Source: a virus. Taken from it: a DNA stretch of 43,979 nt. Below are positions 4,920-40,114 of this stretch, in pieces. The notes under the pieces were generated by a model that saw only the letters and a list, made by a program, of their open reading frames with translations, was not told the DNA's origin and ran no database searches. Numbering within the stretch: position 1 is the first letter of the stretch; the number at the start of each line of letters is the position of its first letter. The stretch covers positions 1 through 43,979 of the IMG/VR virus record IMGVR_UViG_3300046011_003387. One strand, 5' to 3'. The translations under genes and the position numbers were made by a program.

Positions 4920-6464
4920 ATGTCGGACGCTATAGTCAAAAATTTAAGTTTTGGTAAAGAAGCCAGTGATAAGGTATTCGCTGGTATTGAAAAGTTAACA
5001 AAAGCAGTTAGCTCAACATTAGGAGCAAGCGGTAAGTGCGTATTATTGGAGGATTCTTTAGGGAGACCAATTATAACAAAAGATGGTGTAACAGTTGCGG
5101 ATTCAATTATCTTGTTAGATCCTGTAGAAAATATGGGGGCTACACTATTAAAAGAGGCAGCAAGAAAAACTGTCAGAGAAGCAGGTGATGGCACAACAAC
5201 CGCAACAGTACTAGCGCACTCTATTTTGAAGAACGCTTATGCAGTTGAAAATCCGAACGAAAGAAAAATTAAAGAAGGAATAAATAAAGCTGTTGACAAT
5301 GTTATAGCGTACCTTGAGGGAATAGCTATAACAGTTGATGATAACATGCTAAACCAGATAGCCACCATATCAACAAACAATGACCCTGAATTAGGCAAGC
5401 TGGTTGGCGATGCTTTTAGATCTGTTGGAAATACCGGGGTTGTAATGATGGAAACAACATCTGATCCAGAATGCAGCTTAGAATTAGTTGAAGGCATACA
5501 ATGCAATATGGGATTAAAGAATATGCATTTTGTAACTAATCAAAAAAGCAAAACTGCAGAACTAGACAATCCACTAGTATTATTGGTTGAATCGCCTATA
5601 GATAACATAAGACAAATACAATCTATACTAGAGTATGTTATAAAAAATAATAAATCATTGTTAATAGTTAGTGACATGGATCCAATTCCATTATCCACAT
5701 TAGCAATGAATAAATTAAAAGGCAATATAAAAATAAACATTATTGATGCGCCAACATTTGGTGTCAATAGAAAAGAAATATTTGATGATCTAGCGTTACT
5801 TACAGGAGCTACAGTAATAAACGAAGACCTTGGTGATGATTTAGATTTAATACAGCCTGATATGTTGGGAACTTGTGTTAAAAGTATTACAAGCCAAGAA
5901 GAAACAATATTACATATAGGAGAAACTCCAGAAGGCGTTTTAGAGATCATAGAAGACATTAAAAAGTCTTTATTAGAAAAACCTTCCGCAAACAAAGTAA
6001 TAGCTTTAGAAAAAAGACTAGCAAGATTAACCGGTAGAATTGCTTTAGTAAAAGTAGGAGCAAATTCTGAGATAGAATTAAAAGAATTAGCAGATAGAGT
6101 TGAAGACGCTATTTGTGCAACCAAGGCAGCGATTAAAGAAGGTATTGTACCAGGAGGAGGAATTGCTTTATTGAATGCTTCTCATAACATAGATACCTTC
6201 TCACTTGGAGAAGAAATATTGATGGATTCTATTAGAGCGCCATTCAAAACTATATTAGATAATGCGGGTATTGAAAATGCTCCATTAGAAACAATATCAA
6301 AGATTGGCTATGGCTTGAATGTTGTAACAGGAGAAACTGTTAATATGATTGAAGCTGGCATAATAGATCCATTGCTTGTTACTAAAAGCGCATTAAGAAA
6401 TGCAGCGTCTGTAGCCACAACTATATTATCAACTGATTGTGTAATTAATAATCTACGAGCATAA
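4920..6464 (+). CDS. groEL: Phage-encoded GroEL-type chaperonin (Hsp60)
   Basis: The 514-residue product is a full group I chaperonin: two equatorial halves, intermediate and apical domains. ATP-site motifs are present, TKDGVTVA (Asp55) and GDGTTTATVLA (Asp90), as is RVEDA with Asp396 and GIVPGGGIAL just after it. These three Asp correspond to E. coli Asp52, Asp87 and Asp398, so ATPase activity should be intact. It is shorter than the usual ~545 residues and lacks the C-terminal Gly-Gly-Met tail. The apical region keeps VEGIQCNMG and DAPTFG, but several hydrophobic substrate/GroES-binding positions look replaced by polar residues (GLKNMHF, IRQIQSIL). The stop overlaps groES by one base. The order groEL-groES is the reverse of bacterial operons. 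It probably folds virion proteins such as the capsid protein in the cytoplasm; that role is inferred. Confidence 0.95.
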   Translation: MSDAIVKNLSFGKEASDKVFAGIEKLTKAVSSTLGASGKCVLLEDSLGRPIITKDGVTVADSIILLDPVENMGATLLKEAARKTVREAGDGTTTATVLAHSILKNAYAVENPNERKIKEGINKAVDNVIAYLEGIAITVDDNMLNQIATISTNNDPELGKLVGDAFRSVGNTGVVMMETTSDPECSLELVEGIQCNMGLKNMHFVTNQKSKTAELDNPLVLLVESPIDNIRQIQSILEYVIKNNKSLLIVSDMDPIPLSTLAMNKLKGNIKINIIDAPTFGVNRKEIFDDLALLTGATVINEDLGDDLDLIQPDMLGTCVKSITSQEETILHIGETPEGVLEIIEDIKKSLLEKPSANKVIALEKRLARLTGRIALVKVGANSEIELKELADRVEDAICATKAAIKEGIVPGGGIALLNASHNIDTFSLGEEILMDSIRAPFKTILDNAGIENAPLETISKIGYGLNVVTGETVNMIEAGIIDPLLVTKSALRNAASVATTILSTDCVINNLRA

Positions 6465-9516: not shown

Positions 9517-9740
9517 TGGATTACGTAATTAGAAAAATAAGTATAGGAGTAGACTACAAGAATGAGGCTATGCACTATTCTATAGGACAGAACGTTTACG
9601 GAGGCCATGAGATTACACATATATTAAGACAAGAAGATAAATCCTGTATGATATATATAAAGAATGGGGATGAGGTAAAACCATGGAAAGAATTTTATCC
9701 TACTATGGCTATTGCTCTTGAATATGATCTAGAATACTAA
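9516..9740 (+). CDS. Small protein of unknown function
   Basis: The 74-residue product has a beta-rich look (VIRKISIGVDYKNEAMHYSI, SCMIYIKNGDEVKPW) and one Cys. Both ends overlap neighbours by one base (TAATG), placing it firmly in the operon between the coiled-coil protein and the tandem GroES-like protein. I recognise no domain. Confidence 0.6.
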   Translation: MDYVIRKISIGVDYKNEAMHYSIGQNVYGGHEITHILRQEDKSCMIYIKNGDEVKPWKEFYPTMAIALEYDLEY

Positions 9741-10351
9741 TGAGAAGTATATTTAGTTTTATTGTTAAACCAGTAAATGGTGATCGATACAACAACAAAA
9801 TTAAATTAGGAGATAAAGAGTTAATAGTAAATACTAAAATAGAAAGCTTTAAGTCTGTGAATAACTTTGCAGAAGTGATAGCAACGCCATTAGCTTACTC
9901 GACTAATATAAAAGTTGGCGATATAGTTGTAATTCACCATAATGTTTTTAGAGTGTTTTACGATATAAGAGGTAACAAAAAAAATAGTAGATCATATTTT
10001 AAAGATGATTTGTATTTTTGTGAGTTAGATCAAATTTATCTATATAAGAATACGGGTAAATGGAAAACATTTGGAGATAGATGCTTCATTAAACCAATTA
10101 AGAATACAAACCATTTAAACGCTGATAAAGAACAAAAGCTTATTGGTATACTTAAGTATGGCAATGACTCCTTAGAAGCGCTTAAAATAAACGAGGGAGA
10201 CCTTGTTGGTTATACTCCTTACGGAGAGTTTGACTTTGTCATTGATGGGCAGAGACTTTATTGTATGAAATCTAATGATATTGTAATTAAATATGAATAT
10301 AAAGGAAACGAAACAGGCTATAATCCAGAGTGGGCACAAAGCAGTTCTTGA
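9740..10351 (+). CDS. Tandem GroES-like protein (two co-chaperonin-like halves)
   Basis: The 203-residue product appears to hold two GroES-like beta-barrels. Half one (about 1-102) has FIVKPV, then FAEVIATP, NIKVGDIVVIHHNVFR (56-71) and a closing DDLYFCELDQIYLYK. Half two (about 108-190) has DRCFIKPI, IGILKYGN, INEGDLVGYTPYGEF and DGQRLYCMKSNDIVIKYE. Each half follows the GroES order: first strand, a variable loop, VxVGDxV, and a final DIxxx strand. Neither half has an obvious glycine-flanked mobile loop, so it might not dock onto GroEL in the usual way. It ends just before the terminase genes and overlaps the next gene by 59 bases. From memory, related proteins in marine phages are sometimes called GroES-like. 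Confidence 0.65.
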   Translation: MRSIFSFIVKPVNGDRYNNKIKLGDKELIVNTKIESFKSVNNFAEVIATPLAYSTNIKVGDIVVIHHNVFRVFYDIRGNKKNSRSYFKDDLYFCELDQIYLYKNTGKWKTFGDRCFIKPIKNTNHLNADKEQKLIGILKYGNDSLEALKINEGDLVGYTPYGEFDFVIDGQRLYCMKSNDIVIKYEYKGNETGYNPEWAQSSS

Positions 10352-10568
10352 GTTAATTAAAGTGGCAGAAGAAGCTATTTTAAATAATGGTGATGATGAT
10401 TTATCAGCAGACAAGTTAAAGAATGCTGCGGCTACTAAAAAGCTTGCTATTTTCGATGCCTTTGAAATCCTAAGTAGAATACAAGAGGAAACTCGAATGT
10501 TAGAGGAGGAAGAAAAAGAATCTACAGCGAAGCCGTTTAAAGGTTTTGCGGAAGGGAGATCCAAATAA
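10293..10568 (+). CDS. Putative terminase small subunit
   Basis: The 91-residue product is helical. The core is QAIIQSGHKAVLELIKVAEE, then DDLSADKLKNAAATKKLAIF and DAFEILSRIQEET, and a charged end with FKGFAEGRSK. It lies directly upstream of the large terminase gene with a one-base overlap (TAATG), the usual place for a small terminase that binds DNA for packaging. From memory this conserved type precedes terL in many marine phages. The overlap of 59 bases with the tandem GroES-like gene is long but the N-terminal residues look family-like, so I keep this start. Confidence 0.6.
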   Translation: MNIKETKQAIIQSGHKAVLELIKVAEEAILNNGDDDLSADKLKNAAATKKLAIFDAFEILSRIQEETRMLEEEEKESTAKPFKGFAEGRSK

Positions 10569-12790
10569 TGTACGAGCAAACACTATATAAAATATTACCA
10601 AACCATATAAAGCAATCGGTGATTAAACAACAAAACCGGTATAATAGATGGAAGTACGGTTACAATAAAGAGCACGATGTGATCGTTATTAGCAAGACCG
10701 GCAAGATTGGTGAAATATACGAAATACAAAATCTTAAAATAGCATTACCTTTATTAGAAGGCGGCTACAAAAGAAGTAATAAGAAAGAAGAGCAATACTG
10801 GGAGCAAATACCCGTTCCTAAGGAGCTTGAAAGAATAAAGAGTGTATTCGACTGGAATAAATACCCGGATGCATTTAAAGAGAGATGGTACGATTATATT
10901 GATACTGAATTCAAGTATAGAGACGAAGGTTTTTCATTCTATAATAACGGTACGCCATCATATATAACAGGATCGCACTATATGTACTTACAATGGAGTA
11001 AGATAGATGTTGGTGCTCCTGATTTTAGAGAATCCAATAGATTGTTCTTTATATTTTGGGAAGCTTGCAAAGCGGACCCTAGATGTTATGGTATGTGTTA
11101 CTTAAAGAATAGACGTTCTGGTTTTTCATTTATGTCCTCCGCTGAATTAGTTAACTTAGCTACTATGTCTAGTGACTCTAGGTTTGGTATATTATCAAAG
11201 TCTGGAGCCGATGCTAAAACGATGTTTACTGACAAGGTTGTTCCTATATCTTTAAACTACCCGTTTTTCTTTAAGCCAATACAAGACGGTATGGATAGGC
11301 CTAAAACAGAACTTGCGTATAGAGTACCTGCTTCAAAGTTTACCAGAAAGAAATTAGACAATAGCGAAAGCTCAGATGAAATAACTGGATTAGATACAAC
11401 TATTGATTGGAAAAATACAGGTGATAATAGTTATGATGGGGAAAAACTAAAGTTATTAGCGCATGATGAATCTGCTAAATGGTTAAAACCTGATAATATA
11501 CTTAATAACTGGCGAGTTACTAAAACGTGTTTAAGATTAGGTAGTAAGATTATCGGTAAATGCATTATGGGTTCAACATCAAATGCTTTAGATAAAGGTG
11601 GATCTAACTATAAAAAACTTTATTATGACTCCGACGTTACGAAAAGAAACCGCAATGGACAGACTAATTCAGGATTATATAGTTTGTTCATACCTATGGA
11701 ATGGTCCTACGAGGGATTCATTGATACTTATGGCATACCTGTCTTCGACACTCCAAAAACACCAGTCAAAGGTATAGATGGTAATGAAATAGATTATGGT
11801 GTTATTGAACACTGGCAGAATGAAGTAGATGGATTGAAGCACGACTCTGATGGATTAAACGAATATTACAGACAGTTTCCAAGAACAGAGCAACACGCAT
11901 TTAGAGACGAAACAAAACAATCTCTATTTAACCTTACAAAAATATACGAACAGATAGATTACAATAACGATTTAAGAAATACAAACATCTTAACACGCGG
12001 TAATTTTCAGTGGGAGAATGGTATACAAGATACAAGAGTAGTGTTCTATCCTAATAAAGATGGTAAATTTTTAATATCTTGGATACCGCCGGCTCACTTG
12101 CAGAATAATATAATATTAAAGAATGGATTAAAATATCCTGGTAATGAGCACGTTGGCGCATTTGGTTGTGATCCATACGATATATCAGGAACAACAGATG
12201 GCAAAGGGTCTAAAGGAGCGTTGCACGGTAGAACAAAATTTTCAATGGAAGAGGCTCCCTGTAACACATTCTTCTTAGAGTATATATCAAGACCGCAAAC
12301 GGCAGAGATATTTTTTGAAGACGTATTAATGGCCTGTATATTTTATGGTATGCCAATCTTAGCTGAGAACAATAAGCCAAGGTTATTATATCATTTTAAA
12401 AGAAGAGGGTATAGAGGCTTTTCAATGAATCGACCGGATAGAGCCTTTAACAAGTTGTCAACAACGGAAAGAGAAATAGGAGGAATACCAAACTCTTCTC
12501 AAGATATAATTCAAGCGCATGCCGCTGCCATTGAGACAGAAGTAGAAGACCATATTGGTTTAACAGAAACAGGCTATGGAACAATGTACTTTCAAGACAC
12601 GCTTGAGGACTGGGCAAGATTTGATATAAATAGAAGAACAAGTCATGATGCCTCCATAAGTTCTGGCTTAGCTATAATGGCCTGCAATAAAAATAAATAT
12701 ATACCCACTCAAAAGAAAGAAATAGTGTCTGTGCCTTTGGGATTTAGAAAATACAATAACGAAGGGAATACATCAAAAATTATTAAGTAA
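10568..12790 (+). CDS. terL: Terminase large subunit (packaging ATPase and nuclease)
   Basis: The 740-residue product carries an ATPase half with a Walker-A-like LKNRRSGFS (179-187), a Walker B LKLLAHDE (294-301) and motif III MGSTSN (334-339). The nuclease half has GCDPYD (Asp535), PILAEN (Glu600) and SHDASISSG (Asp694), which fit the three acidic residues of the RNaseH-like fold. It powers DNA entry through the portal and cuts the concatemer. The Walker A is atypical (Arg-Arg-Ser-Gly instead of Gly-x-Gly-Lys-Ser), as in several terminase families. The length is larger than the usual 450-650 residues because of an N-terminal extension of about 150 residues. It overlaps the small terminase by one base and the portal starts right after its stop. 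Confidence 0.92.
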   Translation: MYEQTLYKILPNHIKQSVIKQQNRYNRWKYGYNKEHDVIVISKTGKIGEIYEIQNLKIALPLLEGGYKRSNKKEEQYWEQIPVPKELERIKSVFDWNKYPDAFKERWYDYIDTEFKYRDEGFSFYNNGTPSYITGSHYMYLQWSKIDVGAPDFRESNRLFFIFWEACKADPRCYGMCYLKNRRSGFSFMSSAELVNLATMSSDSRFGILSKSGADAKTMFTDKVVPISLNYPFFFKPIQDGMDRPKTELAYRVPASKFTRKKLDNSESSDEITGLDTTIDWKNTGDNSYDGEKLKLLAHDESAKWLKPDNILNNWRVTKTCLRLGSKIIGKCIMGSTSNALDKGGSNYKKLYYDSDVTKRNRNGQTNSGLYSLFIPMEWSYEGFIDTYGIPVFDTPKTPVKGIDGNEIDYGVIEHWQNEVDGLKHDSDGLNEYYRQFPRTEQHAFRDETKQSLFNLTKIYEQIDYNNDLRNTNILTRGNFQWENGIQDTRVVFYPNKDGKFLISWIPPAHLQNNIILKNGLKYPGNEHVGAFGCDPYDISGTTDGKGSKGALHGRTKFSMEEAPCNTFFLEYISRPQTAEIFFEDVLMACIFYGMPILAENNKPRLLYHFKRRGYRGFSMNRPDRAFNKLSTTEREIGGIPNSSQDIIQAHAAAIETEVEDHIGLTETGYGTMYFQDTLEDWARFDINRRTSHDASISSGLAIMACNKNKYIPTQKKEIVSVPLGFRKYNNEGNTSKIIK

Positions 12791-15199
12791 ATGAATATAT
12801 ATACAAATCCAAACAGCGCCTTCCCTAGCCAGGTGGTAGATGATGCTACTAAGGCTTCAGAAGAATACGGGTTGCAAGTATCTCGTGCTATAGAGCAGGA
12901 GTGGTTTAACCAAGGGAGGACAAGTGGTAATAAGTATTTAACACATTGGAATAATTTTAATAAGCTTAGGTTATACGCCAGAGGAGAACAACCCGTTCAG
13001 AAATACAAAGACGAATTGTCAATAAACGGCGATTTGTCTTATTTAAATTTAGACTGGACGCCAGTACCTATATTATCAAAGTTTGTAGATATAGTTGCTA
13101 ATGGCATTTCACAAAAAACCTATGACGTAAGAGCTTTTGCACAAGACCCTGAATCACTTAAGAAAAGAACAGACTATGCATCCTCTGTTAAGTTTGATAT
13201 GGTTAACCAGCCAATAATCCAGGACGTATTACAAAAAACAGGAACTAACATAGCTAAATCAAATATACCTGGAGCAGACTTACCATCAACGCAGGATGAA
13301 TTTGAATTACACATGCAGTTATCTTATAAGCAGTCAATTGAGATCGCTGAAGAAGAAGTAATAAATACTGTATTAAAAACAAACAAATACGACTTAACCA
13401 GAAAGAGGTTAAATTATGATCTAACAACTATCGGTATTGCGGCTACTAAAACATCGTTCAATCCATCTGAAGGGATCGTTGTAGATTACGTGGATCCAGC
13501 ATATATGGTTTATTCATATACTGAAGACCCTAATTTTGAAGATATTTATTATGTAGGCGAAGTTAAAGCAGTTACAATAGCTGAATTGAAAAAACAATTT
13601 CCATATATATCAGAGGAAGAATTGCTTACAATACAGCAGATGCCGGGTAATAGGCAATACATACAGGGTTGGGGTAATTACGATGAGAACACTGTTCAGG
13701 TATTATATTTCGAATATAAGACGTATATGAATCAAGTGTTCAAGATAAAGCATAATGAGAATGGACTTGAGAAAGTAATTGAAAAAGATGATTCTTTCAA
13801 TCCGCCGCAGAATGATAACTTTGAAAGGGTGTCTAGAACTATAGAAGTATTATACACAGGGGCTAAAATTGTGGGTACAAATATGATGTTAGAATGGCAG
13901 TTATCAAATAACATGTCTAGACCCTACGCTGATACCACTAGAGTTAAAATGAATTACAATATTGTAGCTCCAAGACTATATAAAGGCAGGATTGATTCTC
14001 TTGTTAATAAATGTATATCTTTTGCGGATATGATTCAATTAACTCACCTAAAATTACAACAAGTAATGTCTAGGGTTGTTCCTGATGGGGTATTCTTAGA
14101 TGTTGATGGTTTAATGGAGGTTGATTTAGGGAACGGAACAAAGTATAATCCAGCAGAGGCGTTAAATATGTACTTCCAAACTGGTAGTATTGTTGGTAGA
14201 TCCTTAACACAAGATGGTGATTTAAACAGAGGCAAGGTGCCTATTCAAGAATTAACTACATCTAGTGGTCAAGGTAAGATACAGAGTTTAATACAAACTT
14301 ATCAGTATTATTTACAAATGATAAGAGATGTAACCGGGCTTAACGAAGCGGTTGATGGTAGTAAGCCAGATTCAAATGCTTTGGTTGGATTACAAAAGAT
14401 GGCGGCTAATAGCTCTAATGTAGCAACACGTCATATAAAAGACGGTAGTTTATATTTAACAACTGCGATATGTGAGAATATATCATTAAGAGTCGCTGAT
14501 TGTTTAAATAGTCCATTAACAGCAAATTCATTGAAGCAAAGTATATCAACTTACAATGTAGAAGTCCTGAAAGAAATTGAACATTTAAATCTGCACGACT
14601 TTGGTATATATTTAGAGATTGAGCCAGATGAAGAAGAAAAAGCGCAGTTAGAACAAAACATACAAGTTTCTTTACAAAATGGTGGAATTGATTTGGAAGA
14701 TGCTATCGACATAAGACAGGTGAAAAATCTTAAGTTAGCAAACCAACTATTAAAATTAAAAAGAAAAAAGAAACAAGAACAATTACAGCAACAACAATTA
14801 GCAAACATCCAGGCACAAGCAGACGCAAATTCGCAGAACGCGGAGAAAGCTGCATTATTTGAAGTACAAAAGCAACAAGCATTAACACAAGAAGCAATTA
14901 GTGTTGAACAAGCTAAAACGCAATTCAGAATTCAAGAGATGCAAACTGAAGCTCAGATTAAAAAGCAGCTACTAGCTGAGGAATTTAATTACAATATGCA
15001 GTTAGCACAATTAAAGGTGCAGGCCGATATGAGTAAGTTTAATCAGTTAGAAGACAGAAAAGACGAAAGAACTAAGTTACAAGCTACACAACAATCAGAA
15101 CTAATAGACCAGCGTAAGAATGATTCTTTACCAAAAGATTTCCAAAACGAAGCGACTGATCTAATGGGTGATCTAAGTGGTATGTTGGGGATGGGATAA
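12791..15199 (+). CDS. Portal protein
   Basis: The 802-residue product starts directly after the terminase stop and precedes scaffold and capsid genes, the standard portal place. The conserved segment SYLNLDWTPVPILSKFVD lies near residues 79-96; long helical and beta segments follow, with RMxx-type wing regions not clearly seen. From about residue 656 to 778 it becomes a Gln- and Lys-rich coiled coil (for example QEQLQQQQLANIQAQ), as in the barrel or crown extension of many podophage portals. It forms the dodecameric ring at the capsid vertex through which terminase pumps DNA. The family call is from context, length and this recalled motif. Confidence 0.87.
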   Translation: MNIYTNPNSAFPSQVVDDATKASEEYGLQVSRAIEQEWFNQGRTSGNKYLTHWNNFNKLRLYARGEQPVQKYKDELSINGDLSYLNLDWTPVPILSKFVDIVANGISQKTYDVRAFAQDPESLKKRTDYASSVKFDMVNQPIIQDVLQKTGTNIAKSNIPGADLPSTQDEFELHMQLSYKQSIEIAEEEVINTVLKTNKYDLTRKRLNYDLTTIGIAATKTSFNPSEGIVVDYVDPAYMVYSYTEDPNFEDIYYVGEVKAVTIAELKKQFPYISEEELLTIQQMPGNRQYIQGWGNYDENTVQVLYFEYKTYMNQVFKIKHNENGLEKVIEKDDSFNPPQNDNFERVSRTIEVLYTGAKIVGTNMMLEWQLSNNMSRPYADTTRVKMNYNIVAPRLYKGRIDSLVNKCISFADMIQLTHLKLQQVMSRVVPDGVFLDVDGLMEVDLGNGTKYNPAEALNMYFQTGSIVGRSLTQDGDLNRGKVPIQELTTSSGQGKIQSLIQTYQYYLQMIRDVTGLNEAVDGSKPDSNALVGLQKMAANSSNVATRHIKDGSLYLTTAICENISLRVADCLNSPLTANSLKQSISTYNVEVLKEIEHLNLHDFGIYLEIEPDEEEKAQLEQNIQVSLQNGGIDLEDAIDIRQVKNLKLANQLLKLKRKKKQEQLQQQQLANIQAQADANSQNAEKAALFEVQKQQALTQEAISVEQAKTQFRIQEMQTEAQIKKQLLAEEFNYNMQLAQLKVQADMSKFNQLEDRKDERTKLQATQQSELIDQRKNDSLPKDFQNEATDLMGDLSGMLGMG

Positions 15200-24903: not shown

Positions 24904-26529
24904 ATGGCAGCAGCAATAGAGGTAAAATTCTTTAATTCATACTTATTAAAAAGAATAAAGTCAATCCAACCCGTAAGCCCTATAACTATACCAGAGGCCG
25001 AAGGAGATACTTATAGCTTTTCAGAGGGAGATAGTGTGTTTTTATATACTCCAGACAGTGGAACATTGCCTACTGAAATAGGCGCTGGACAAGAATTAAC
25101 GTACACGCAGGATGGTATTGAATATAGTTTTATTATTATCGGATGGGAGGATATTGGAGGAGGTGTATTTAAGATATACTTAAATAAAGCAATAACTTCG
25201 GATAGTTTTGACAATACAACTATTCCTTTAATTGAATTAAATTTTGGAGAAATAATAGACTTTAATTATATACCAGGAGGTCAGGGATACACTAGTGATC
25301 CAGCTAAAGATTGGTATATAGAAGAATCTAGAATACGTGGGGGTTATAACAATACTTCAACAGATTATGGCGTTAGAGCCTATATAGTTGAAGAATCAAC
25401 AACAAGACAGAAGAGACTTAGCTCTCTAATATACTCTGGTATTTTCAACTCTAGAACAGGCGTTAACAATACAAACCAGTTTTCCGTAGCAGAAGATATT
25501 ACAAGAACATTGGACCCAGCACAAGGATCAATACAGAAGCTATATTCAGAGGATACAAACTTAATTATATTCCAAGAATTAAAAGTAAGCAGAGCTCTTA
25601 TAGATAAGAACGCCATTTATTCGGCTGAAGGAGAACCAATTACAACATCATCACTTGACGTTATAGGCCAGGTACAAGCTTACTCCGGTAACTACGGTAT
25701 TAGTACAAATCCTGAAAGCTTTGCGGTTTACGGGTATAGAAAGTACTTTGTTGACAAAAACAAAAACGTAGTGCTTAGACTTTCACAAGATGGTATTACT
25801 GAAATATCGGGTAATGGCATGGTTGATTACTTCAGGGATGTAATAGCTATAACAGAAGATACTGGTAAGATAGTTGGATCTTGGGACATGCATAATAAAT
25901 TATATACCGTATCTATTCAAACACCTGCAAACAGTATTAATCCACAATTCCATACTTTATCTTTCGATGAAGATTCATTAGGATGGACTAGTAGATTCTC
26001 TTTTAAACCAGACTTTGGTTTTAGTCTTAGAAGTGATTACTTCACCGCTTTTGAAGGTAATATATGGAAGCATTATTCAACAGGAGTGCCATATTGTAAT
26101 TTTTACGGGAATCAATATTTATCCAGTGTAACTGTGGTTATGAATCCAGACCCGTCATATTCTAAAACATTCCAGACTGTGAACTACGAGGGATCACCAG
26201 GGTGGGCTTTAACTGATATATTTACAGATTCAAGTATTGGTATTCCAATAACGTCAGCATCGTCTCCTACGAGCTTAGCGGGGTTAGAAAATCAATTGTT
26301 CTTGAATAACTTTAAAGCAAAAGAAAACAAATACTTTGGCAATATAGTTAACACAACATTGGCAGCTAGCGGAGAGGTTACTTACGGACAATCAATATCT
26401 GGTATATCTGGATTTTATATGATAGGAACATTTACATTCCCAGATCCATTTCCGTCGCGTATTGACTATAGTAGACCGGCAACATTATTTGCGGTCTCTT
26501 CAACATTTGCACAATCATTAAGTAATTAA
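24904..26529 (+). CDS. Second tail/nozzle-type structural protein
   Basis: The 541-residue product is rich in beta structure with repeated Tyr/Gly/Ser strands. Segments such as SFAVYGYRKYFVDKNKNVVL and DVIAITEDTGKIVGSWDMH resemble propeller blades of nozzle proteins. It directly follows the 1363-residue nozzle-like protein and may be the other half of a split nozzle, or a separate tail protein. The leader to the next gene is ten bases. The function is assigned by context and blade-like pattern. Confidence 0.55.
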   Translation: MAAAIEVKFFNSYLLKRIKSIQPVSPITIPEAEGDTYSFSEGDSVFLYTPDSGTLPTEIGAGQELTYTQDGIEYSFIIIGWEDIGGGVFKIYLNKAITSDSFDNTTIPLIELNFGEIIDFNYIPGGQGYTSDPAKDWYIEESRIRGGYNNTSTDYGVRAYIVEESTTRQKRLSSLIYSGIFNSRTGVNNTNQFSVAEDITRTLDPAQGSIQKLYSEDTNLIIFQELKVSRALIDKNAIYSAEGEPITTSSLDVIGQVQAYSGNYGISTNPESFAVYGYRKYFVDKNKNVVLRLSQDGITEISGNGMVDYFRDVIAITEDTGKIVGSWDMHNKLYTVSIQTPANSINPQFHTLSFDEDSLGWTSRFSFKPDFGFSLRSDYFTAFEGNIWKHYSTGVPYCNFYGNQYLSSVTVVMNPDPSYSKTFQTVNYEGSPGWALTDIFTDSSIGIPITSASSPTSLAGLENQLFLNNFKAKENKYFGNIVNTTLAASGEVTYGQSISGISGFYMIGTFTFPDPFPSRIDYSRPATLFAVSSTFAQSLSN

Positions 26530-29311: not shown

Positions 29312-32300
29312 ATGCTAGAATACGAGCTTGACGGAAAAATATATACAGAACAGGATTTAATTAATGAGGCCGGAGGTAAAGATAAACTTTCGGCTTACAT
29401 TAAAAGTAAGGGTTTTAAAGTAGCTACTAAAAAGGCAAAACCATCAACTAAAACAACTTTAACAGATTCACAATTTGGATTTGATAAAGAGGGCAAATAT
29501 ACACAACAAAAAGAGCAATTTTCTGAACTAAATAAAACTAAAAAGAAAAAGCCAACAGCTATAACTCCAGGTGTAAATGATTTTGGAGCTAAAATTGAAA
29601 ATGAGTTAAAGCCATTTAACTTTAAGGAAACCGGTAAAACAAAAGAGTACAAAGCCATTGAAGCGGCAAAAGCGCAAGAGGCTGAGAAAGCTAAAAATGA
29701 AATAAAACCAAGGTTAAGACCATTAGAAATACAAAAAGAAAAAGCAAAAAAAGAAGAAAGCGGGTTTTTAAATTATCTAGGAGAAAGTTTTGACCAAGGT
29801 ATTAGCACATTAGTTCAGTCTTTTTATAAAATACCTGAGTTTACCTATGATGTTGCTGCTACTATAACAAATCCTATTGGGCGCGCAATTGGCAAGCTAG
29901 GCGGAGTTGAAGTTGAAGATGCTTCATCAGAGCGTATAATGAATACACTTGGAATTAAAAACGTTCCTGCTGAAATTTTGCAAAAGAGAATAAACGAATC
30001 AAATAAAATAATAAAAGACTATAGTGATAAAAACGGTGCAGACCCATTAACAGCAATAGAGAATGGCAATTATTTAGGAGCCGCTAAACTAGTAGCCGGA
30101 GGAACAGTCCAATCATCACCAATGATGGCCGCTGCGATATTAAGCGGTGGTAGTTCATCTGCTATGGCTGGAATTGCTACATCTTCCGCTATATCAAAAG
30201 CGGAACAGTTAAAAATTGAAAATCCAGAAATGGATGTACAAACTAGAACAACTAATGCCGCAGTTGCCGGCGTTCTTGAAGGCTATTTAGGCCAATTGTT
30301 TACAGGTGCTTCAGGAGCAGTTGTAAAGAAAATAATAATGGACAAAGGCGCTAAAGCAGGAGCAAAAATTATTTCTAATGGCATCGTAGGAACGGTAGAA
30401 AAAGCTATTGAGAAAAGCCCAATGATTGGTGTGCTTGGAGAAATAGCGGAAGAAAGTGCTGTTGAGTTGGGGAATCAATTAAATGACATTAATTCTGGTA
30501 TTAGAACCGAGTTAGATTACCGACAAATAACAAATGCCGGTATTATAGCTACTGGCATGGCTGGAACTAATACTGTGCCTATATATGCTGCTAAGGGTTA
30601 TATGAAGGCAACTGAGTATAACAAAGTAAAACAAGTTAACAAAGAAATAAACGGACTTACAACTCAATTATCCAATCCATATATAAGCGCCCCAGATAAA
30701 AAAATAATTGCAGCAAGAGTCAATAGGCTTATCGGTGAGAATAAAGCTATTGTAGGTACCAGTTTAGAGAAGGTAGAGGCTTTGCCAGAAAATGTAAAAA
30801 CAGAGCTTAATACATTAAATACTGGGCTAGATGATTTAAAAAGTAAATACTTGGAATTAGTTGATAATACTGACTTACCTGTTGATGTCAAAAAAGCAAT
30901 GGGCAGTGAATTAGCATTACAAGCAAAGGAAATACAAGATAGAAAAACCAGTATAATTGAAGGTAATTATATATATGAAGATTTTAAAAAATTACCAGAA
31001 GCAGAACAGAATAGAATAAAAGTTTTGGCTAATGAGACATTGGTAGCTGATTCTGAATTAACAGACAACCCTAAAACAAAGTTTAATGAGGATGAAATAA
31101 AAAGGGAGGCTATTAATATTTATAATGCGGAAATTAGAGCAGGTGATGTTGAAACGGATGTGCAGAGGACTAAAACCGCTGCTAAAGCTTTAGGATTATC
31201 CGAAGATCTTGACATGCCAGAACTAAACACCGCTAATGATGTAATAACCTATCTAAGTGAAAATACTAACCTAGATGAAAACACTATAGACGAATTAGCT
31301 GATTCTTACGGAGCATTTATACCATTATCAAATGGCAAAGAGGCTCTAATTATAAATAAAGAGGCGGCTAATATGGATCAAGTAGTTACTACAGGCCAGC
31401 ATGAGTTTCTACATAAACTTATATATAAAGCAGTAAAGGATAATCCAAATCTACAAAAGAAAATAGGGACGGATTTATATGAGCATTTGGAAAAGTACAT
31501 TGGCACCGAAGATTTTAATAACACAGAATTTAAAAGCAGATACGACACCTATAAAGCCGACTTTGAATCTACTAAAGCAACTTTAGAAAATAAAGTAAAA
31601 AAAGCAAAAGACTATTTTGAAAGAGGTCTTATAAAAGAAGAAAGATATAACCAAGCAATTACAGAGGCTGACCAAGCAGTTGCATCTGCAGAAGGTAAAT
31701 ACCTAGAAGAAACATTGCCTTTATTATCGGAATCATTAACAAAAGGAGACATTAAGTATAACGAAACATTTTTTACAAAAATTGGCGATATATTACGTAG
31801 AGTATTTCAGAAATACGGTTTAAGTAAAGTAAAATTTAATACCGGAAAAGATGTATTTAATTTTGTTAAAGATTATAATAAAAGCTTTGAGAAAGGGCAA
31901 TTTACAAAAGCGTTTAAAGCGTTGGCAAAAGAAGGCCAATATAAAGGTTCTATTGCTAAAGGTAACGCGCCAGTTAGAGCTAAAGCTAAAACCACTGTGA
32001 AGAAAAGCCAACCATTATCTCAAGTTGAAAGTTTAAAAAAACAGCTTAAAGATATACAAGATAATGAGTTTGATTATGATCCTGACGATTTTGATCAACA
32101 AGTTGCTAATCTACAGAATAAAATTAAAAAAGCAGTTGAAAAAGAAAAAACAGCTCCTCCTGTGGAAACCAAAAAGGAAGTTACAGAAGAAGAAGCTGAT
32201 AAGGAAATAATAAAAAATGAAAGATCTTCATTGTCTTCTGATAAAGTACAAAAAATATATGACGACAAAGGAGTAAATGGTGCGCAAGACATTATAGACC

Positions 32301-35300
32301 TATTTAGACCTATTACTAAGAAATTAGTAAACAGAAGAATGGATGCCCCAGGATTTGATAGAGAGTTATTAACCGATGAGATAGAAACCGGCACAGGCGG
32401 TATTTTAGATTTAATAACAAAATACAAGCCAGAAAGCGGTATACCTTTAGCTGCGTTTATTAACAAGTATTTGCCGGTTAGAGCTATTGCGGCATCTAGA
32501 AGAGTACTGGATAAAGACTTTAGTAAAGATGTCACTGAGGAGAAAGGTTTAATGGCTGAAGAAACTGTTTCTGAGATAAAAGAAAAACCAAAATATAAGA
32601 ATGCATTAGAATCGAATGTTTTTGACCCAGAAGCGCTAGAAACAGCCAAAAACAAGATCATAACAGTAGTAAGAACGTTAAAATCTAAAATAGATGAACC
32701 AATAAGTTTAAACCGCACTGTTACGCCTATAATAGCTGAAATTAGAGATGAGATTGGTAAGCAATTGGATATTGATCTTAAGACCGCAATGGGCGGTAAA
32801 AAAGATGATCAACTTAAGAAATGGTTGGTAAAGAATAAGCGCTATGTCTTAGAGAACATGACTACAACATGGTTAATGGGTAAGGATGGACAAGGAGGTA
32901 TCCCTCAAGCTATTCAAAAGCAGATTGATGGAAGATGGGTTAATTATCCTGATTGGGTTGGTAAAAAAATTGATAGGGAAACCACTTCAACTGATTTAGC
33001 AGGTAGGACGTCTGGAGCAGAGCTAGTTAGACGTTTACCTAGTGTGGCTAATAATGTTTCTGAAGCAGATTATCTTTCACAAATACTAGAGCCTAGCGGT
33101 AATCCTATTAGAGGTAGAAAAGAATCCTTAGCTAAAGCAATAGCGGAAGAAGCTGCTTTTGATATAATTAACAAAGATTTTGAAGACGGGGGCCCAATTT
33201 TTGAGGCATTTAAAGCAAATCAGGAAAGGCTTGGCGTTTACTTAAAGGATAATGTTACTAATGAATTCGCGAAGCAAGCCGAAAGAGGTAATGTTAAATT
33301 CTCTAAAAAATTAATTAAAGGATTCGAGATATCCCAGAATAAGTTAGGCAAAGATATATCTAATGCTGAAACAATTACAGACGAAATAAAAGTTATTAAT
33401 AATTGGATTGCTAGCGATGGCAGATCTATAAGAACTTTGGCATTTGAAATTGGTAAAGGGTTAAAACAATTTACCACAAATAGAGGTTTGTTTGAAAATA
33501 TAATTTTACCAATAATTAAAACGTATTCAAAATTTGAGGGTATCGTTGGGGAAAATTCATATAAATTAGGAAAAGCTGAAAAAGGAGAATCTATATACTT
33601 TGGCGAAACTAAAGTCCCTCTATGGGCAGATACCACCGTTATAAAGAAAAATTGGGAAGGATTTGTCAATAAAATTGACGAAGAAGCAGTAAAAGCAACA
33701 AATGAGCTAATTAATGTTGTCAAGTATTTTAAAGACAATAATCAAACGAAAGAAGATTTTGAATCATATTTAGCTTTGTTGAGATGGGATCAAAGAAGTT
33801 TAATTAGAAAAGTGTCAAAATCAGGCATTGGGGTATTAGAATTAAATAGGAGCCAAGAACCAAGGCTTGAGCACAATCCGCCGGTACAAAATATTGTGGA
33901 AAAAACTATAGATTTATTTGAAGGCAAAATAAGCGAAAAAGAATTCAGACAATTTATAGATAAAGCGAAAGTAAACTTAGTGCCTAAAGCACTTGAGGAT
34001 ATGCTCCCTAATTATATAGAGAGTGAAAATAGAATGTATGATACTCAGGCTGTTTTGTATCTTCAAGATTTAATAGACAAAGGATTTAAAATTACAGGCT
34101 TAGAAAAAGAGTACGGATCAAAAGCAAAGTTTAATTCATTAGTAAAATTAGCAAAATCAGGTGTAACTTCAAAAGCAAATATTCAAAATTCTAACAATAT
34201 AATCGCTATTAACTCATCATTACCAATTAAATATTCTAAATCACCAAAAGGAATTTCTGTTTTTGATTTCGATGACACTGTTGGTTTAACAAAAGGTAAT
34301 GTGCTGTACATGATGCCTGATGGTTCAACTGGCAAGTTAAACGCTGAAGAATTTGCTAAAGAAGGTTCCAATCTTTTATCAGAAGGAGCGGTATTTGATT
34401 TCTCTGAATTTAGCAAAGTAGTCGAGGGCAAACCGGGACCTATGGTTGAGAAAATGAAAAAGATGATTGGTAAATTTGGGCCAGACAATTTCTTTATTCT
34501 AACAGCTAGACCCGCTGATGCTGCTGTGCCTATCCACGAATTTCTATCATCGATAGGTATTAATATACCGTTAGAGAATATAACCGGATTAGGTAACAGT
34601 GCTGCGCAAGCAAAAGCCGACTGGATAGTAGGCAAAGCAGCTGAAGGATATAATGATTTTTACTTTGCAGATGACGCACCTCAAAATGTTAAAGCAGTTC
34701 AAGACGCTCTAGATGTTCTTGATGTTAAATCAAAAATACAACAAGCTAAACTTAAATTTAGTAAATCAATGTCTGCACGTTTCAATGAAATCATTGAGGA
34801 GAATAAAGGCGTTGAAAGCTATAAGGTATATTCTGATATTACCGCTAGAAGACGAGGTTTAAAGAAAAACAGGTTTGATCTTTATGTCCCGCCATCTGCA
34901 GCAGACTTTGAGCTATTACTTTATAACTTTATGGGAAAAGGAGCATTAGGTGAATCGCAGAAAGAATTTTTTGAAGATGCTTTGATAAAGCCATATATAA
35001 ACGGAGTGAACTTAATGGATGCTGTTAGACAATCTATAAAAAGAGAGTATAAGGCATTGTTAAAGTCATTCCCTGAGATTAAAAAAGAACTTGAAAAGTT
35101 AACACCAAATAAAGATTTTACTTATGATCAAGCGATGCGTGTTGCTATTTGGGATCAATTTAATGTTGAAATTCCAGGCTTGTCTCAAAGAGATAGAATT
35201 TACTTGTCAGATCTTATTAATAATGACCCAGATCTTGCTGCTTTTAAGGACGGCTTGATTGTAATGGGTAGACAAAAAGACGGGTGGTTGCCTCCAGGTA

Positions 35301-37027
35301 CTTATTGGGATGCTGATACTATTATTTCTGATTTGTACAATATAACAGAAGGATCAGGTAGAAAAAAATTCTTAGGTGAGTTTATTGAAAATGTAGAAGA
35401 GTTATTTGGAACGTGGTCTGAAGGAATGCTTGTTGGGCCAAATATGAATAAGATTGAAGCCGTTTACGGAACAAATGTTAGAGAAGCGTTAGAAGATTCT
35501 ATATACAGAATGACTAATGGTAAGAACAGAAGCTTTGGACAAGATAGAGAAACAACAGCTTGGAACAGTTGGGTAAATGGATCTACGGGGGCAATCATGT
35601 TCTTAAACACTCGTTCGGCTGTACTACAGATGTTAGGAGCAGTTAACTTTTTGAACTGGAGAGATAATAATCCTTACAATGCTGGTAAAGCATTCCTAAA
35701 CCAACCACAATATTGGAAAGACTTTGCTCGTATATGGAACTCTGATAAGTTAAAAGAAAGACGTGGAGGTTTAAGAGAAGATGTGGCGTCTGCTGAGATT
35801 GCTAACGCTGCCGCAGGAAGTAAGAATAAAGTAGTGGCAGTAACATCGTACTTATTGAAGATAGGATATACACCTACACAATTAGCAGATAGTTTCGCTA
35901 TCGCTTCTGGAGGTGCTCCATTCTACAGAAACAGGATTAACTCTTATTTGAAAGAAGGATTAACAGAGCAAGAAGCAGAAAACAAAGCGTGGCAAGATTT
36001 CTCAAAAATATCGGATGAAACGCAGCAGTCAGGTGATCCAAAAGATATATCAAAACAACAGTCAAGTGCTGCTGGTAGATTACTATTGGTTTTCCAAAAC
36101 TTTACAATGCAACAATCTCGTATCGTTAAGAAAGCTGCTTTAGACCTTAAGAATGGTAGGGGTGATGCTAAAACAAACATAGCTAAGATAGCGTATTATT
36201 TAGCGGTACAGAATATAATGTTCTCGACGTTACAGCAAGGCATCTTTGCCACTTTCTTTGATGATGATGAGGAAGAAGATAAGAAAGCTAAAACAAAAAA
36301 AGAAGCTGCTTATGATGTTGCTAATGGCGTGCTTGATAGTATACTTAGAGGTACAGGATTCCTTGGAGGTGTTGTTTCAACTTTAAAGAATACAGTTGTT
36401 AAATACCTTGAGGAACGAGCTAAGAAACAAAAAGCTGAGTACGCTAAAGTTGTACTGGAATTTGCTAATATGTCGCCTCCTATTGGATCTAAATTAAGGA
36501 AGACTTATTCTTCATTACAACAGACAAAGTACGATAAAGACTTAATAGAAGAAAGAGGGTGGGGTGTTATGCAAGATGGTAGAGTTCATTTAGGGCCAAT
36601 GTATTCTGTAACCGGTAAATTAGTTGAGGTAGGAACTAACTTTCCTATGGACCGATTAGTTAACAAGGTAGAGAATGTTTCTCAAGCATTTAACTCTGAA
36701 AACACCACAATGCAACGAATTGCTACCGGATTAGGTTACTCTCCGTGGACTGTTGGTATTGAAGGAACTAAAGGAGATATACTTATAAAAGAGGCCGCTA
36801 AAGAAAAGCGCAAGGAAGAAGGCACAATAAAAGCCAAAGAGACTAGAAAAGAAAATGCTGAAAGATTAAAAGATAGCATTAAAAGTTTGTCTCCGGAAGA
36901 GAGAATGAAGTATAGACGTGCAAAAGCTCTAGAAAAAAGAGAAAAAAGAATAGAAAAAGCAAAAGAAAAAAGAGAAGAAAGGCGCAAGAAAATGGAAATG
37001 ATAAACAAGTTAAACGCAAACAAATAG
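29312..37027 (+). CDS. Giant multidomain internal virion / polyvalent protein (HExxH, sigma-2-like, HAD)
   Basis: The 2571-residue product holds several modules. The N-terminus (1-40) is a small domain with YELDGKIYTEQDL. Gly/Ala-rich hydrophobic stretches lie near 255-350. An HExxH site QHEFLH (His697, Glu698, His701) fits a zinc metallopeptidase. Residues about 985-1075 match sigma-70 region 2 (LLTDEIETGTGGILDLITKY, PESGIPLAAFINKYLP). A HAD phosphatase domain follows: FDFDDT (Asp1652/Asp1654), LTARP (Thr1731), a Lys before it in KADW, and ADD (1787-1788). Three K(F/Y)SK linkers lie at 1329, 1640 and 1815. Near 2290-2317 a hydrophobic helix pair and then a very basic coiled-coil tail follow. 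It is last in the ejection-protein run, like T7 gp16, so it probably enters the cell with the DNA. Functions of the modules are inferred. Confidence 0.8.
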   Translation: MLEYELDGKIYTEQDLINEAGGKDKLSAYIKSKGFKVATKKAKPSTKTTLTDSQFGFDKEGKYTQQKEQFSELNKTKKKKPTAITPGVNDFGAKIENELKPFNFKETGKTKEYKAIEAAKAQEAEKAKNEIKPRLRPLEIQKEKAKKEESGFLNYLGESFDQGISTLVQSFYKIPEFTYDVAATITNPIGRAIGKLGGVEVEDASSERIMNTLGIKNVPAEILQKRINESNKIIKDYSDKNGADPLTAIENGNYLGAAKLVAGGTVQSSPMMAAAILSGGSSSAMAGIATSSAISKAEQLKIENPEMDVQTRTTNAAVAGVLEGYLGQLFTGASGAVVKKIIMDKGAKAGAKIISNGIVGTVEKAIEKSPMIGVLGEIAEESAVELGNQLNDINSGIRTELDYRQITNAGIIATGMAGTNTVPIYAAKGYMKATEYNKVKQVNKEINGLTTQLSNPYISAPDKKIIAARVNRLIGENKAIVGTSLEKVEALPENVKTELNTLNTGLDDLKSKYLELVDNTDLPVDVKKAMGSELALQAKEIQDRKTSIIEGNYIYEDFKKLPEAEQNRIKVLANETLVADSELTDNPKTKFNEDEIKREAINIYNAEIRAGDVETDVQRTKTAAKALGLSEDLDMPELNTANDVITYLSENTNLDENTIDELADSYGAFIPLSNGKEALIINKEAANMDQVVTTGQHEFLHKLIYKAVKDNPNLQKKIGTDLYEHLEKYIGTEDFNNTEFKSRYDTYKADFESTKATLENKVKKAKDYFERGLIKEERYNQAITEADQAVASAEGKYLEETLPLLSESLTKGDIKYNETFFTKIGDILRRVFQKYGLSKVKFNTGKDVFNFVKDYNKSFEKGQFTKAFKALAKEGQYKGSIAKGNAPVRAKAKTTVKKSQPLSQVESLKKQLKDIQDNEFDYDPDDFDQQVANLQNKIKKAVEKEKTAPPVETKKEVTEEEADKEIIKNERSSLSSDKVQKIYDDKGVNGAQDIIDLFRPITKKLVNRRMDAPGFDRELLTDEIETGTGGILDLITKYKPESGIPLAAFINKYLPVRAIAASRRVLDKDFSKDVTEEKGLMAEETVSEIKEKPKYKNALESNVFDPEALETAKNKIITVVRTLKSKIDEPISLNRTVTPIIAEIRDEIGKQLDIDLKTAMGGKKDDQLKKWLVKNKRYVLENMTTTWLMGKDGQGGIPQAIQKQIDGRWVNYPDWVGKKIDRETTSTDLAGRTSGAELVRRLPSVANNVSEADYLSQILEPSGNPIRGRKESLAKAIAEEAAFDIINKDFEDGGPIFEAFKANQERLGVYLKDNVTNEFAKQAERGNVKFSKKLIKGFEISQNKLGKDISNAETITDEIKVINNWIASDGRSIRTLAFEIGKGLKQFTTNRGLFENIILPIIKTYSKFEGIVGENSYKLGKAEKGESIYFGETKVPLWADTTVIKKNWEGFVNKIDEEAVKATNELINVVKYFKDNNQTKEDFESYLALLRWDQRSLIRKVSKSGIGVLELNRSQEPRLEHNPPVQNIVEKTIDLFEGKISEKEFRQFIDKAKVNLVPKALEDMLPNYIESENRMYDTQAVLYLQDLIDKGFKITGLEKEYGSKAKFNSLVKLAKSGVTSKANIQNSNNIIAINSSLPIKYSKSPKGISVFDFDDTVGLTKGNVLYMMPDGSTGKLNAEEFAKEGSNLLSEGAVFDFSEFSKVVEGKPGPMVEKMKKMIGKFGPDNFFILTARPADAAVPIHEFLSSIGINIPLENITGLGNSAAQAKADWIVGKAAEGYNDFYFADDAPQNVKAVQDALDVLDVKSKIQQAKLKFSKSMSARFNEIIEENKGVESYKVYSDITARRRGLKKNRFDLYVPPSAADFELLLYNFMGKGALGESQKEFFEDALIKPYINGVNLMDAVRQSIKREYKALLKSFPEIKKELEKLTPNKDFTYDQAMRVAIWDQFNVEIPGLSQRDRIYLSDLINNDPDLAAFKDGLIVMGRQKDGWLPPGTYWDADTIISDLYNITEGSGRKKFLGEFIENVEELFGTWSEGMLVGPNMNKIEAVYGTNVREALEDSIYRMTNGKNRSFGQDRETTAWNSWVNGSTGAIMFLNTRSAVLQMLGAVNFLNWRDNNPYNAGKAFLNQPQYWKDFARIWNSDKLKERRGGLREDVASAEIANAAAGSKNKVVAVTSYLLKIGYTPTQLADSFAIASGGAPFYRNRINSYLKEGLTEQEAENKAWQDFSKISDETQQSGDPKDISKQQSSAAGRLLLVFQNFTMQQSRIVKKAALDLKNGRGDAKTNIAKIAYYLAVQNIMFSTLQQGIFATFFDDDEEEDKKAKTKKEAAYDVANGVLDSILRGTGFLGGVVSTLKNTVVKYLEERAKKQKAEYAKVVLEFANMSPPIGSKLRKTYSSLQQTKYDKDLIEERGWGVMQDGRVHLGPMYSVTGKLVEVGTNFPMDRLVNKVENVSQAFNSENTTMQRIATGLGYSPWTVGIEGTKGDILIKEAAKEKRKEEGTIKAKETRKENAERLKDSIKSLSPEERMKYRRAKALEKREKRIEKAKEKREERRKKMEMINKLNANK

Positions 37028-38245: not shown

Positions 38246-40114
38246 TTATGTTATTTCACAATTACCACCGCCACAGGCGGCAGAATCACTAAAGTTAGTA
38301 TTGTCTTGTACTTCAATAACTTTTGATAGATCAACATCTTTTAATGCGAGCATCATTTCCTCATATTGTTCTTTAGTACAATCTTCAAACGGAGTTTGCT
38401 TATATGTTCCGCCATGGTATGGCAATACCGATAAACCATTATAGTATTCTTTATTTGCCCACATCCATTCACCTACAATTTTCCATTCATCATCTCTTAC
38501 GGAAACTGTACAAGAAACATTGTGCGTATTGTTGCCTTTATCGTGGCCAGTCTTAACCCAATCCTTAGAAATCAATTTAACTCTTTCTAATAGATCTAAT
38601 GTTGACTCATGGCGCGTTATGGCACCATTAGGAGCCTTCTGAGGCACAGAAACGACTGCTTGTAATGTTGGATTAAAATATTCATCTTCGATCAGTTCTG
38701 GATGATTTATTGCAAGATAGGAATAGATTGCTTCATTCTTACCTAATCGCATTCTCCTAATGTAATAATCATTATGCCAAGCGTGAATACCGCTAGATGT
38801 GCCGAGTACAAGACTAGTTGTGCCAGCGGGCTTAACAGCTGTAGTGCGGGCAGCCTTGTTAATACCGAGAGCAGCAGAAATAACATTATTGGTATCTTTA
38901 ACAACTTGAGCCGCTTCTTCATAATTTAAATTTAAGTTAGACTTTGATGCAATACCTGTCATTGATACGCCAAGCAATGCGTCCTTTTCTGTATTCTTTC
39001 TCCATATATCTCGTAAGTAATGAAAGTCTGAATACGATGCTTGCAGTGTCCCGATAAACGACGCTGCAGAAGATCTTGCGTTAAAATCATCTTGATCTTC
39101 AATATCTGCCATATTGATTTCAGTTAGATTACAGAACTGATACGGCCTTAAAGCAATCTCGCAACAAGGATTTGTACCCCAATCTTTATCATTAGTTAGA
39201 TATATACCAGGTTCTCCAGATCCAGATGCTTCAATACGTTCCCACACTTTATCAAATGTTTTTTTGTCAATCTTATGACGCAATAAAACAACAGAGTTAT
39301 TTGATCTACCTCTTTGCGGATTATCTTCCCACCAATTACCCGCCTTACAATTTAACATTGCATCTGAATCAAGATCAAACAAACTAATCATTGCGGCTCT
39401 GCGAATACCCCCGGCTAGAACAGCATCGGCAATATGGCACTGAATATCGTGGCACTCGATGTCTGTTAATTTAGATCTGTCATCCTTTTGACGTAGCACA
39501 GCCTCAATCTTAACTAACGCAATTCTAAGCGGCTCGGGTCCGGGAGCTTTACCACCAGCGGTTATGAGCAATGCGCCTTTAGGTCTTATGTCAGAAAAAT
39601 CAAACTCTATGTGAGATGTTAATCCTCCTGTGTAAGATTTAAATAAAGCCTTGACTGCGTCTGCCCAGCCAATTATACTATCCTGAACAACATACTTTTT
39701 CTTACGATTGTAATTAGGTTTTCTGATTTCAGGAAGTTTCTCAATGTGGTGGTTTTGGACCGAATAACCAACGCCAGTCCCTCCAAGCAATAAAAACATA
39801 GTCTCAGAAAAACTATGAATACTATCAACAGGTAGGAAAGCACAGTTATAAACGCGAGCATTATTAAGCTCAATAGCTTTACCGCCAAACTGTAGGCTTC
39901 GCATCGAAGGTAAAACCTTTTTAGTGAATACAAAATTCTTGTAAACTTGCTCAATTGATTCTTTCATTTTAGGAAATTTAGATGTATGCATCTCCATATT
40001 CCTGGTTACTAATTCATCCCACGTTTCTCTTCTTTCTTTTTCCGGCAGGTACTTCGCGTATTTCGTATACACGGTTATATCGGACAATATTTGCTTATCT
40101 AAGCTTAAACTCAT
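38246..40114 (-). CDS. nrdJ: Adenosylcobalamin-dependent (class II) ribonucleotide reductase
   Basis: The 622-residue product is a monomeric class II reductase of the Lactobacillus RTPR type. Conserved blocks are VLPSMRSLQFGGKAIELNN, ARVYNCAFLP (Cys91), GGTGVGYSVQ, AGGIRRAAMIS, NPCCEI with Cys317 and Glu319, and QFCNLTEIN (Cys328). The C-terminus CGGGNCEIT supplies Cys614 and Cys619, the swinging redox pair with x4 spacing. These match the five Cys and the Glu of the RTPR mechanism (C119, C408, E410, C419, C731, C736). It makes deoxyribonucleotides from ribonucleotides without oxygen or a second subunit, using host B12. It is shorter than the ~739-residue prototype. The role is dNTP supply for phage DNA replication. 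Confidence 0.95.
   Translation of the reverse strand: MSLSLDKQILSDITVYTKYAKYLPEKERRETWDELVTRNMEMHTSKFPKMKESIEQVYKNFVFTKKVLPSMRSLQFGGKAIELNNARVYNCAFLPVDSIHSFSETMFLLLGGTGVGYSVQNHHIEKLPEIRKPNYNRKKKYVVQDSIIGWADAVKALFKSYTGGLTSHIEFDFSDIRPKGALLITAGGKAPGPEPLRIALVKIEAVLRQKDDRSKLTDIECHDIQCHIADAVLAGGIRRAAMISLFDLDSDAMLNCKAGNWWEDNPQRGRSNNSVVLLRHKIDKKTFDKVWERIEASGSGEPGIYLTNDKDWGTNPCCEIALRPYQFCNLTEINMADIEDQDDFNARSSAASFIGTLQASYSDFHYLRDIWRKNTEKDALLGVSMTGIASKSNLNLNYEEAAQVVKDTNNVISAALGINKAARTTAVKPAGTTSLVLGTSSGIHAWHNDYYIRRMRLGKNEAIYSYLAINHPELIEDEYFNPTLQAVVSVPQKAPNGAITRHESTLDLLERVKLISKDWVKTGHDKGNNTHNVSCTVSVRDDEWKIVGEWMWANKEYYNGLSVLPYHGGTYKQTPFEDCTKEQYEEMMLALKDVDLSKVIEVQDNTNFSDSAACGGGNCEIT

Follow-up and report, generated by a model that had tools for sequence, protein, structure and literature searches.

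We analysed the whole 43,979-base sequence of a virus record from IMG/VR (IMGVR_UViG_3300046011_003387), hereafter the window, with a focus on the giant multidomain protein of 2571 residues encoded at 29312..37027 (+), the last gene of a rightward structural cluster. Within this open reading frame (ORF) lies a helical domain resembling sigma-70 regions 1.2-2.4 (32228..32512, +; residues 973-1067), delimited from an AlphaFold2 model and fold searches. Directly 3' of it is a strongly conserved block of no recognised family (32603..33298, +; residues 1098-1329), containing GGIPQAIQK and GNPIRGRKESLAK. A previous sequence-only reading had placed a domain like sigma-70 region 2 at 32267..32536 (+). 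The segments that it quoted are present, in the quoted order, in the translation of that stretch (residues 986-1075 of the ORF), and the structural domain begins slightly earlier, as residues 18-112 of the model correspond to residues 973-1067 of the protein. From the predictions and profile searches described below, we conclude that the resemblance to sigma-70 region 2 is very probably real.

Relatives of the giant protein were found in IMG/VR, and the position held by this domain, which we call the slot, is occupied by different versions among them. We sampled 94 distinct slots in all, from L179 and from the loci that have the downstream block. By short patterns rather than by clustering, these were assigned to types A (47 slots), C (28), B (9), D (4), E (3) and F (2), with one other. 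Type A is the version in the window, and type C is a very different version from relatives. Since the block was used to find the loci, it accompanies every version counted, with the exception of L179.

The sequence-only reading had called for a structural comparison with sigma-70 region 2, and the predicted models of types A and C both returned a match. The type-A model (a 380-residue core built by AlphaFold2 from 56 alignment rows; predicted local distance difference test score, pLDDT, 80.9) was searched with Foldseek, and 50/50 among the matches listed were sigma factors or complexes of sigma with RNA polymerase (top E 0.14, probability 0.93). The VIA-align program superimposed residues 973-1067 on sigma regions 1.2-2.4, with the best alignment to Escherichia coli sigma70 (6ca0_F; Z 9.1, 2.7 Å over 90 residues, 9% identity). 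The type-C model was built from 23 rows, none of them type A (pLDDT 79.6; predicted template modelling score 0.72), and it is only partly independent of the type-A model, whose alignment also includes type-C rows. For type C, sigma accounted for 50/50 among the Foldseek matches listed (top E 0.073) and for 48/50 among those listed by VIA-align (best Z 7.6), where T4 gp55 was the first row and the other two matches were signal recognition particle entries. In a fold search of a viral library, the matches listed included several sigma factors of phages and, with a probability of 0.99, an uncharacterised viral fragment of 1475 residues. Because single E-values are weak and these Z-scores are prone to chance, we place the weight of the fold evidence on the agreement between the two models and on the sequence results. 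On this basis, the predicted sigma region-2 (sigma2) fold of the domain is well supported.

Sequence profiles provided a second line of evidence. When 103 windows of 110 columns from the alignment of the giant protein were compared with a sigma region-2 profile, the three highest scores (20.8, 18.0 and 16.4) all lay over the slot, and the best window elsewhere scored 15.7. A slot profile combining versions exceeded 200/200 of its column-shuffled copies, a comparison on which we place little weight as far as it depends on sigR, the 15-row sigma subset used in both column-shuffle comparisons, since these rows were picked by the presence of EGN anywhere and are not purely primary sigma. In a blind search of 177,635 PDB sequences with a mixed profile, the top hit was a sigma factor (E 0.0064), the next was sigma-K and the fourth was RpoS, with the match aligned over regions 2.2-2.4 in the right register. 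This profile consisted of 15 rows hand-picked across versions (types A and C, L110, L173, L174 and L179), and its result is one of five PDB sequence searches. The search with A2 placed sigma first and third at non-significant E-values (0.46 and 0.73), and the search with P0001 returned no sigma factor. Among 553 ORFs, the mixed profile ranked ten primary-type Bacteroidota sigma ORFs at the top; as the ten are closely related, we count them as roughly one hit.

We then used the structural match to compare individual residues with sigma70. In this register, model residue 111 corresponds to sigma70 residue 447 in several VIA-align rows, and types B, C and E were placed by motif only. We take positions 403, 406, 407, 409 and 413 to be those that contact the beta-prime coiled coil (clamp), W433 and W434 to be the residues for promoter melting, and R436, Q437 and T440 to be those that read the -12 element. 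Across 402-407, type A has T in 41/47 slots, D403 in 38/47, E in place of Q406 in 45/47 and T in place of E407 in 41/47, and position 409, N in sigma70, is variable. The framework around these positions is nearly invariant in type A, with G at 408 and at 411 (46/47 each) and L at 427 (47/47), and an aromatic residue occupies position 430 in every slot counted (47/47 type A, 27/27 type C, 9/9 type B and 3/3 type E). The acid at 403 is mostly kept in types A, B and E, and the odd relative L179 has ELLQE where RpoD has DLIQE. The W433/W434 pair is lost in all versions counted, with K or R at 433 in 47/47 type-A slots, and the residues for -12 reading are lost as well. As these residues are gone, the domain should not open promoters in the way that a normal sigma factor does. 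Loss of the polymerase-binding surface had been named in advance as an outcome that would speak against a sigma-like role, and here the result is divided: the acid at 403 is mostly retained in type A, and the other contact positions (406, 407, 409 and 413) have changed or vary. Judged by these residues, promoter opening appears to be lost, and contact with RNA polymerase is possible.

A number of results weigh against kinship with sigma or against a polymerase-binding function. Neither Foldseek E-value is significant alone, and the aligner itself cautions that Z-scores below about 13 are common among helical bundles and could arise by chance. A sigma fold was predicted for types A and C, and types B, D, E and F were recognised by eye from their motif alone. 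Pfam gave no match to Sigma70_r2 (PF04542) in the window protein or its pieces; the best PF04542 score for the slot of any relative was 10.8 bits (E 0.024; cut-off 24), for a type-C slot in a 2828-residue frame of record G041. Single slots scored no better than shuffled copies against the sigma hidden Markov model, and the type-A profile alone did not rise above its column shuffles, of which 17/100 and 16/100 reached the real score. In the slide along the giant protein, windows read backwards reached 20.4, near the real maximum of 20.8. PDB sequence searches with type C and with the type-E sequence returned no sigma. The presumed clamp-contact residues differ among slot versions, and the slot was not found by profile in the giant proteins of the cultured or named relatives elemo, MW202828, phi38:1 and phi13:2. 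Neither Pfam nor any single-sequence search detected the resemblance to sigma-70 region 2. Region 4 (Sigma70_r4) was likewise not found by Pfam in the giant protein or its pieces.

Compared with sigma-70 region 2 as represented by PF04542, RpoD, RpoS, sigma-K and T4 gp55, the domain is similar in the order of its helices, in its fold and in the glycine, leucine and aromatic framework of regions 2.2-2.3. It differs in the lack of a Pfam match, in the lack of a region 4 detectable by Pfam, in the loss of W433/W434 and of the -12 residues, and in being embedded in a protein of 2571 residues.

The slot holds several versions that look unrelated in sequence and are exchanged between phages. In type-B records, the downstream block is 55-72% identical to that of the window, whereas 0/9 of their slots match the window slot by blastp; the same search matched 15/26 type-C slots (best E 5e-4). 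In a tree built from the downstream block (91 rows, comprising the window and all of the 94 slots but 4 that had too little block), the starred branches force at least four gains or losses of type B, four of type A and three of type C. Across this tree, the slot types require 16 changes, compared with 37.9 in shuffles. Given the similarity of the block next to unlike slots, and the changes on the tree, we conclude that the slot was swapped several times while the neighbouring block stayed. A search for relatives of L179 returned L179 alone.

Three further observations concern the same gene. The stretch at window 33308-34141 (residues about 1333-1610) does not align between many relatives, while both of its flanks do, and it is likely another exchange zone. 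In L007 (9001-18161) the giant gene is split over two frames of 1993 and 1081 residues, possibly by a frameshift or an assembly error. In L177, stops break the reading frame inside the slot, which is not the case in its near relatives.

The giant protein has features of the polyvalent proteins of phages and conjugative elements. Passages of PMC5512222 propose that such proteins are injected and then processed by zincin-like peptidases, and some of them carry virion RNA polymerases. The window protein is likewise very large, with several unlike domains, and its gene is clustered with those for terminase and portal; the modules other than the sigma-like one are motifs only. An HEFLH (HExxH) motif, zincin-like by motif only, lies at 31400..31414 (+; residues 697-701), and an HExxH motif precedes the slot in 77/81 giant proteins longer than 2000 residues. 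A DFDDT motif, HAD-like by eye only, lies at 34265..34279 (+; residues 1652-1656), and a DFDDT-like motif follows the slot in 47/81 of these proteins. No peptidase family was matched by Pfam in the giant protein or its pieces. The likeness to the proteins treated in passages of PMC5512222 extends to the size, the many modules, the HExxH motif and the presence of portal and terminase in the phage, and the difference lies in the sigma-like domain, as the word sigma is absent from the main text of that paper. The gene order, and the label 'structural protein' on the syntenic giant protein of phi38:1, suggest that the window protein is in the virion, and by analogy it is probably injected with the phage DNA.

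A separate sigma factor of 250-270 residues is encoded in 16/23 of the viral records searched (17/24 with one bacterial genome included), and Sigma70_r2 was over its cut-off in this protein in 4/4 of the records scanned. In G032, to which the near relative L001 belongs, it matches phrog_351, a sigma factor (E 1.7e-18), and is encoded at 56868-57650 (-) in the leftward replication block; in other relatives it corresponds to L260-L263. The G032 gene lies ~12 kb beyond the giant gene, and the 44-kb window ends before that place. As most relatives encode such a factor, the giant protein is not needed for later transcription. No phage RNA polymerase was recognised, though the test for one was weak; a T7-type RNA polymerase (PF00940) was found in 0/19 records, in a search where the controls gave no match either.

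Our preferred reading, which we hold tentatively and at a little under an even chance, is that the stretch encodes a diverged sigma-70 region-2 domain within an ejected giant polyvalent protein of a podophage that infects Bacteroidota, and that this domain docks host RNA polymerase. The giant protein would enter the cell together with the DNA, like the ejected cargo proteins of crassviruses, and its zincin-like part may cleave it. The sigma2-like domain would then dock host RNA polymerase at the surface of the beta-prime clamp to which true sigma2 binds. Lacking both tryptophans, the residues for -12 reading and a detectable region 4, the domain alone would neither choose nor melt promoters. 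Its role might instead be to retain polymerase on the entering genome, or to exclude the host sigma, until the separate sigma factor of the phage has been made, and the slot versions could have adapted to the polymerases of different hosts or to host counter-measures. We put forward with more reserve, as a possible but doubtful extension, that a family of Bacteroidota podophages injects a giant protein bearing an exchangeable sigma2-like cassette, a virion-borne pseudo-sigma that captures host RNA polymerase without reading promoters, fills the place of the virion RNA polymerase of crassviruses and hands over to the true sigma factor of the phage.

An old sigma2 domain could also have taken on a new task in the cargo protein, either structural or in DNA handling, as a module that keeps the fold and no longer meets RNA polymerase. 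The hydrophobic core and the aromatic residue at 430 are kept across versions while the presumed contacts vary and W433/W434 are lost throughout, and the basic residues on the last helix, among them the invariant K or R at 433 in type A, would suit such a module. However, repeated replacement of the slot exceeds what a passive spacer needs and the 402-407 face is well conserved within type A, so we consider structural reuse somewhat unlikely. The exchangeable versions at a fixed place would fit an arms-race role, and passages of PMC5512222 describe counter-defence domains in polyvalent proteins; both agree with a sigma mimic acting as a decoy for a target other than polymerase, such as an anti-sigma factor or a host defence that senses sigma, which we nonetheless regard as improbable; no such target was found, although no search aimed at one was made. 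To the same slight degree we entertain a chance resemblance, in which an unrelated helical domain happens to look like sigma2. Such an origin would account for the weak single-sequence signal, for a type-A profile within its shuffles and for Z-scores that are modest for helical folds, but not readily for the return of sigma throughout the searches with both modelled versions, nor for a blind PDB profile search that places sigma first and in the right register.

If the domain does bind polymerase, as in our preferred reading, it would represent a third answer to the problem of starting transcription on DNA that is still entering the cell, beside virion RNA polymerases and injected polymerase-modifying enzymes. 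It would give phages a new way to reach the host transcription machinery at once and would be a case of a sigma2 domain acting apart from promoter recognition, in which natural swaps would show which surface matters. The interest of the system hinges on whether polymerase is the target.

In literature searched by titles and abstract openings, with most subscription journals outside its scope, no sigma domain was reported in a virion or ejected protein. The injected polyvalent protein is of a known kind, and an exchangeable sigma2-like module within one was not found in the literature searched. One close comparison is with the crassviruses, which, according to passages of PMC10172136, eject giant cargo proteins that include an RNA polymerase. 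The likeness to the system in those passages consists of a Bacteroidota podophage, a muzzle-type tail protein and giant proteins stored for ejection. Whereas the crassvirus cargo carries a polymerase, none was recognised here and a sigma2-like domain is present; the main text of PMC10172136 contains the word sigma 0 times. The giant proteins of Cellulophaga phages phi38:1 and phi13:2 and of the Flavobacterium elemo phages are likewise encoded by the last gene of the structural cluster, and phi13:2 gp127 matches residues 267-542 of the window protein (E 2e-7); they differ in having no sigma-like slot or downstream block by profile.

In whole-protein scans, the giant protein had no PHROGs match and all of its Pfam matches were below cut-off. 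A tblastn search with it against 50,697 phage records gave nothing at E 1e-3, and tblastn with the type-C core and with the L179 piece found nothing. Among 84,980 species genomes searched, one relative of the core was present, on a contig of a Bacteroidetes metagenome assembly. The rightward cluster that ends in the giant gene holds genes for GroEL, GroES, terminase, portal and virion proteins. These include the terminase large subunit (10568..12790, +; phrog_6681, E 5.7e-162), the portal protein (12791..15199, +; phrog_6547, E 2.2e-139) and a muzzle-like tail protein with a crassvirus muzzle C-terminal domain (24904..26529, +; PF25729, E 1.5e-10, over cut-off). Among named phages, relatives of the terminase occur in Flavobacterium elemo, Cellulophaga, Tenacibaculum and Maribacter phages, together with one spring-water phage (87 records). 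It is therefore very probable that the host belongs to the Bacteroidota.

Other genes in the window include phage-encoded GroEL and GroES (4920-6464 and 9740-10351; phrog_5725 and phrog_13932). The leftward block contains a ribonucleotide reductase gene (38246-40114; phrog_367), with an insertion domain of the B12-dependent type just below cut-off. At 760-2955, a 731-residue protein carries BspA-type leucine-rich repeats (PF13306).

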